Positions 2,007 through 2,147 of a DNA stretch of 64,000 bases are shown piece by piece (positions within the stretch are counted from its first letter, which is position 1; every line of letters begins with the position of its first letter). Position numbers and translations under genes: made by a program. Location of the stretch: the NCBI GenBank assembly GCA_019639175.1, contig JAHBSK010000005.1, forward strand, positions 62,001-126,000. The letters run 5' to 3'. Source of the DNA: Acidobacteriota bacterium. Its GTDB lineage: Bacteria > Acidobacteriota > Blastocatellia > Pyrinomonadales > Pyrinomonadaceae. The notes beneath the pieces are model-generated. The model worked only from the letters and a program-made list of their open reading frames with translations. It made no database searches and had not been told where the DNA came from.

Positions 2007-2147
2007 ATGAGAAAACCCGTAAATGCAGGAGATTTAATAATGTACAACCCGCTTGGCGAGAAAGGCGTGGCCTATAAAGTTTCATATATTTACGGCGGCG
2101 CAACGCTCGAGTTTCTTGCCGGCGACGTTCTTCGCGGCGTTGAATAA
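2007..2147 (+). pseudogene. Chimeric relic: tpiA 5' end joined to pgk 3' end
   Basis: A 46-codon open frame whose first part (MRKPVNAG, then MY at residues 12-13) copies the start of tpiA (MRKPVIAG, then MY); the first 16 bases are identical to tpiA at 2912. Its second part ([17 protein letters not shown]) copies the end of pgk ([17 protein letters not shown]) with many synonymous base changes. The sequence after the stop also resembles the pgk downstream region, including a TATAAT hexamer. I read it as the scar of a duplicated pgk-tpiA segment of which only the ends remain. Whether the chimeric peptide is translated is unknown. Confidence 0.8.

Follow-up and report, generated by a model that had tools for sequence, protein, structure and literature searches.

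The window, a 64,000-nucleotide stretch of an Acidobacteriota genome of the family Pyrinomonadaceae, belongs to a 340-kb contig in a 3.8-Mb assembly of 21 contigs. Towards its 5' end it carries, all on the + strand and in this order, pgk, a first toxin-antitoxin (TA) module (TA1), a 5' fragment of tpiA, a 3' fragment of pgk, a second TA module (TA2) and tpiA. The phosphoglycerate kinase gene pgk (23-1243; Pfam PGK, E 6e-150) and the triosephosphate isomerase gene tpiA (2912-3667; Pfam TIM, E 1e-98) are intact and resident. Their products share 93% and 92% amino acid identity, respectively, with those of the nearest relative, genome G014. Third-position divergence from G014 is 0.35 for pgk and 0.29 for tpiA, and the present tpiA resembles that of G014 over its whole length.

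Each TA module consists of two small adjacent genes on the same strand with the antitoxin first (TA1, 1322-1546 and 1561-1950; TA2, 2198-2473 and 2479-2898). Both toxin-like proteins exceed the Pfam cut-off of 23.6 bits for the PIN domain (TA1, 32.1 bits, E 2e-7; TA2, 26.2 bits, E 1.3e-5). Judged by sequence, both pairs look complete and are predicted to be of type II with a PIN (VapC-like) toxin. The TA2 toxin also matched the NCBIfam VapC model (45.7 bits, under that model's cut-off of 140) and, in a structural database, the PDB toxin chain 3zvk (E 6e-8) and VapC 6nkl (E 1e-5); its antitoxin-like partner contains an HTH_17 domain (Pfam, E 1e-10). The TA1 antitoxin-like open reading frame of 74 aa gave no match to Pfam (in its longer reading) or to NCBIfam, and a homologue of 75 aa lies 5' of the TA1-like toxin gene in genome G010. 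Since the 13 nt between the TA2 toxin stop and the tpiA start (2899-2911) hold no separate promoter, tpiA, an essential gene, may share the TA2 promoter as part of a TA2 operon.

The best TA1 homologue is 66% identical (G010; 57% for the toxin of G061) and the best TA2 homologue 46% (G037); neither is located between pgk and tpiA, in searches that covered the genus, 396 genomes of the phylum and plasmids. TA1-like and TA2-like toxins are present in relatives at other loci. The closest TA1 homologue (G010, L196:1556-2181) lies directly 3' of a threonine-dehydrogenase-like gene, another housekeeping neighbour.

Between the two modules is a 46-codon open reading frame (2007-2147). Its 5' flank (1951-2006) contains a -10-like TAGAAT and a ribosome-binding-like site, GGAG, ahead of the ATG, and has no clear match among the flanks of relatives. 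An earlier note on this DNA had read the frame as an in-frame chimera of a tpiA start and a pgk end. Two profiles, one for the 3' end of pgk and one for the 5' start of tpiA, were made from relatives' sequences, the window excluded, and searched against all fetched pgk-tpiA intervals. The tpiA profile found its best match at 2007-2060 (nhmmer, E 4.3e-7; runner-up 0.65) and the pgk profile at 2063-2143 (E 1e-12; runner-up 0.76), so the chimera is borne out, with matches well above noise at one place among the intervals. The tpiA part covers codons 1-18, is decayed, is 75% identical to the local gene and reads MRKPVNAGDLIMYNPLGE when set against 18 residues of local tpiA. The pgk part corresponds to the last 30 codons or so of the gene (2063-2154), with 23 residues aligned to 25 residues of local pgk, and thus extends some 10 codons further upstream than the note had placed its start. 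The gap separating the two profile matches is a 2-nt filler, AA (2061-2062), across which both halves are in frame. The tpiA 5' part lies upstream of the pgk 3' part, the gene order of a tandem scar.

A search of the genome itself with the scar (E <= 0.001) returned the scar and tpiA and no other place. The same scar was found in no other genome by profile search of the fetched intervals or by DNA search of 41 genomes of the genus, among which the species of the window alone has it. That the similarity arose by chance or by misassembly is scarcely credible: the sequence does rest on a single 21-contig assembly, but matches with E-values of 1e-12 and 4e-7 adjoin each other in one frame and lie between those same genes, and the fragments have no close match elsewhere in the genome, so that they are not a misplaced copy. 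The join of tpiA start and pgk end is confirmed as real.

The two halves have diverged differently from the local genes. The pgk half shows 21 differences in 22 codons, distributed 7/1/13 over codon positions 1/2/3 (second-position deficit, P 0.002). Because 13 of the 22 third positions differ and a single second-position change is seen, this half diverged under selection while its gene was still functional, and it has moved further from the resident copy than G014 has. The tpiA half shows 14 differences in 18 codons, distributed 2/6/6, with no third-position excess against the local gene (P 0.31 over the 18 codons). Its residue changes are I>N, N>D, W>L, K>I, K>N and L>P; N9, W10 and K11, invariant in the relatives listed, are all changed. 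The catalytic lysine of triosephosphate isomerase sits in the GNWKM motif. The tpiA half mainly shows drift and decay, and selected divergence is not supported for it. The earlier view that both halves differ mostly at synonymous or conservative positions, their source genes having diverged under selection before the join, consequently holds for pgk and fails for tpiA.

Small deletions also mark the pgk half. Six bases are missing, in frame, within STGG, and the repeats shared with resident pgk run at an offset of 919 before a point in the pgk tail and of 911 after it. The tail probably carries an 8-nt deletion, with the ancestral stop TGA at 2152-2154. Reading the tail as GVE followed by a stop, with no deletion, is possible and is disfavoured; the deletion is favoured, since with it both the match TCGCGGCGYTGAATAAT and a colinear flank are recovered. 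A role for the 46-codon frame as a small protein under selection, or as a regulatory element of the TA pair, is very improbable. The frame is open and has its ribosome-binding-like site, but it occurs in one of 41 genomes, contains indels, has lost conserved residues and matches no family, and a fusion falls in frame by chance once in three. The scar, about 140 bp long, is more plausibly a non-functional footprint of recombination.

Similarity to the resident locus continues beyond the pgk remnant. The 3' flank of resident pgk (1244-1276, with TATAAT at 1265-1270) is colinear with that of the remnant (2155-2187, with TATAAT at 2176-2181), and direct repeats D3 and D5 have one spacing, 911. Ungapped comparison of the remnant tail and flank (2132-2187) with the resident counterpart (1221-1276) gave 37 identities in 56 positions, the best of 62 compared; the next genome reached 29/56, and the maximum in 5000 shuffles was 32. 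Both copies of the pgk end are thus followed by homologous flanks, as in a tandem scar. Taken alone, the flank agrees at 17 of 32 positions in fixed register (P 0.001), with TATAAT in both copies, and gives P 0.07 in free local alignment; the share contributed by TATAAT could be convergence. The most divergent block of the flank surrounds a perfect 15-nt palindrome, AACAGACGGTCTGTT (2154-2168), directly 5' of the TATAAT of TA2, and is a probable operator for the HTH_17 antitoxin. With homologous pgk ends and promoter-like flanks in front of each, the two TA modules resemble a pair of alleles for the same slot.

These flanks could also be explained if the resident pgk-tpiA pair had been duplicated in tandem in situ, if a deletion and neutral decay had then shaped the copy, and if the TA modules had arrived by separate insertions. 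Of all genomes, the resident copy does match the pgk tail and flank best, and a grouping with the resident genes is not rejected by AU tests, either for the pgk fragment (66 sites; p 0.41 and 0.62) or for the tpiA fragment (54 sites; p 0.19 and 0.43), 66 and 54 bases being too few for trees to place the fragments. However, the substitution pattern of the pgk half (13 of 21 differences at third positions, one at second; P 0.002) is unlike neutral decay, and when pgk genes are ranked by how similar they are to the remnant, the resident comes only 39th, which makes such a local duplication improbable. A site-specific integrative element is not supported: no integrase was found among the open reading frames between pgk and tpiA, and in place of att direct repeats there are gene ends that have diverged to 75% and 73% identity.

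In G014 the two genes are 69 nt apart with no TA module between them, and the gene downstream of tpiA is the same as in the window; the G014 locus is the empty site. Across the genus the pgk-tpiA gap ranges from 0 to 4721 nt (31 intervals, each on one contig), with 8 of the 31 at 0-69 nt, and it is a plastic cargo site. The other intervals hold YitT-family, transporter-like, lipid-synthesis-like, HicA-type and other cargo of up to 4.7 kb; of these assignments, those checked against Pfam are YitT, HicA and one weak match to CHAP. Among L033-L067, YitT/DUF2179-type cargo was counted in nine, a beta-ketoacyl-synthase-like block in four and transporter-like cargo in three. A HicA toxin gene occupies the site in G005 (L044; E 1e-9) and G006 (L037; E 5e-11), and the short gene 5' of it is HicB-like in one of the two, by a weak match below the cut-off. 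In both, the HicA stop overlaps the tpiA start. Neither next to the TA1 homologues in G010 and G061 nor next to the HicA modules was a gene-end duplication of at least 28 nt found. Among the relatives with neither, one or both modules that the earlier note had proposed to look for, the first kind exists (G014); TA1 or TA2 lies between pgk and tpiA in none of the 41 genus and 396 phylum genomes, and for this reason no parental allele or donor was identified.

The reading preferred here, to which we give a probability of roughly 0.6, is that two alleles of one pgk-promoter-TA-tpiA locus, each with a different TA module and derived from separate lineages of the genus or family, came to be joined as a tandem, of which the inner part was lost by deletion. 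The most economical route would begin with the foreign locus in circular or tandem form, recombining with the chromosome at the homologous 3' end of pgk or its flank; this crossover would give native pgk, a TA module, foreign tpiA through to foreign pgk, the other TA module and native tpiA. One deletion, starting at codon 18 of the upstream tpiA and stopping some 30 codons short of the end of the downstream pgk, would then leave the tpiA-start/pgk-end fusion between TA1 and TA2 and keep the outer pgk and tpiA intact and resident. The native outer genes, the foreign-looking inner pieces and the shared flanks agree with this course: the tpiA remnant has LGE, common in the genus, where resident tpiA and G014 have TAE. 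The join, its two parent genes, the relative with the empty site, the shared flank of pgk and the decay are observed; we infer the foreign donor, the circular or tandem stage, the succession of events and which of the two TA modules came later.

The same gene order would result from a single event with no tandem stage and no loss of tpiA at any time: a linear foreign fragment running from the pgk end through TA2 to tpiA, with homology in or beyond tpiA, would have been joined at its left end, without homology, into codon 18 of the recipient tpiA. Homology-facilitated illegitimate recombination of this kind has been described in competent bacteria and in E. coli (PMC3240628) and has been called on to explain how effector-immunity arrays came to be stacked in Vibrio (PMC5361080); the 2-nt filler at the junction may also suit it. 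Such a join, however, predicts that the remnant is the former resident tpiA and that the start of the present tpiA is foreign. The reverse is indicated, because the present tpiA resembles G014 throughout and shares its TAE, and the remnant has LGE; a one-step origin, the chief alternative, is therefore rather unlikely. The trees on 66 and 54 sites (AU p 0.19 to 0.62) reject neither course. The earlier proposal, that a second pgk-TA2-tpiA segment from a relative recombined beside the resident one and the middle was deleted, agrees with the gene order, the empty site of G014 and the homologous flank, but its donor was not found, and the one-step join fits the order equally well.

The scar suggests that the TA modules arrived at the pgk-tpiA site when copies of the flanking genes recombined with one another. 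These genes left their own mark, which speaks for recombination mediated by the neighbouring genes rather than for the action of a transposase or integrase. The model predicts relatives with pgk-TA1-tpiA or pgk-TA2-tpiA alone, and a third TA type, HicA, occupies the same site in other species. More generally, and as a tentative proposal held at somewhat less than even odds, TA modules in the family may spread as alleles of housekeeping intergenic sites through interspecies homologous recombination in the flanking genes and may be stacked by tandem integration, the scar being a direct footprint of this process.

No relevant report of TA modules at the pgk-tpiA intergenic site was found in the open-access literature. 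In enterobacteria, TA modules are located in housekeeping operons, with ccd in folA-apaH, mazEF in relA-mazG and parDE at relA-mazG in Salmonella, and the mechanism of TA mobility and integration has been called unelucidated (PMC7167474). The window resembles those sites in having small TA operons between co-directional housekeeping genes, variable among strains and of differing TA families per site. It differs from them in having two stacked modules with a fusion of both flanking genes between them. We know of no such scar at the enterobacterial folA-apaH and relA-mazG sites. For the stacks of orphan immunity genes in the type VI secretion (T6SS) clusters of Vibrio cholerae, a process akin to homology-facilitated illegitimate recombination has been proposed (PMC5361080). 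Those clusters likewise record successive arrivals of small toxin-immunity units at one site, with truncated gene parts left behind. In Vibrio cholerae, however, the displaced genes are old effectors, whereas the window retains a tpiA 5' and a pgk 3' fragment, with both genes intact outside and TA pairs that look complete. The HicA modules of G005 and G006 share the pgk-tpiA slot, the strand and the close packing against tpiA, but belong to another TA family, are single and have no gene-fragment scar. To our knowledge, a scar derived from both flanking housekeeping genes and placed between two TA modules is new and of a rare kind.
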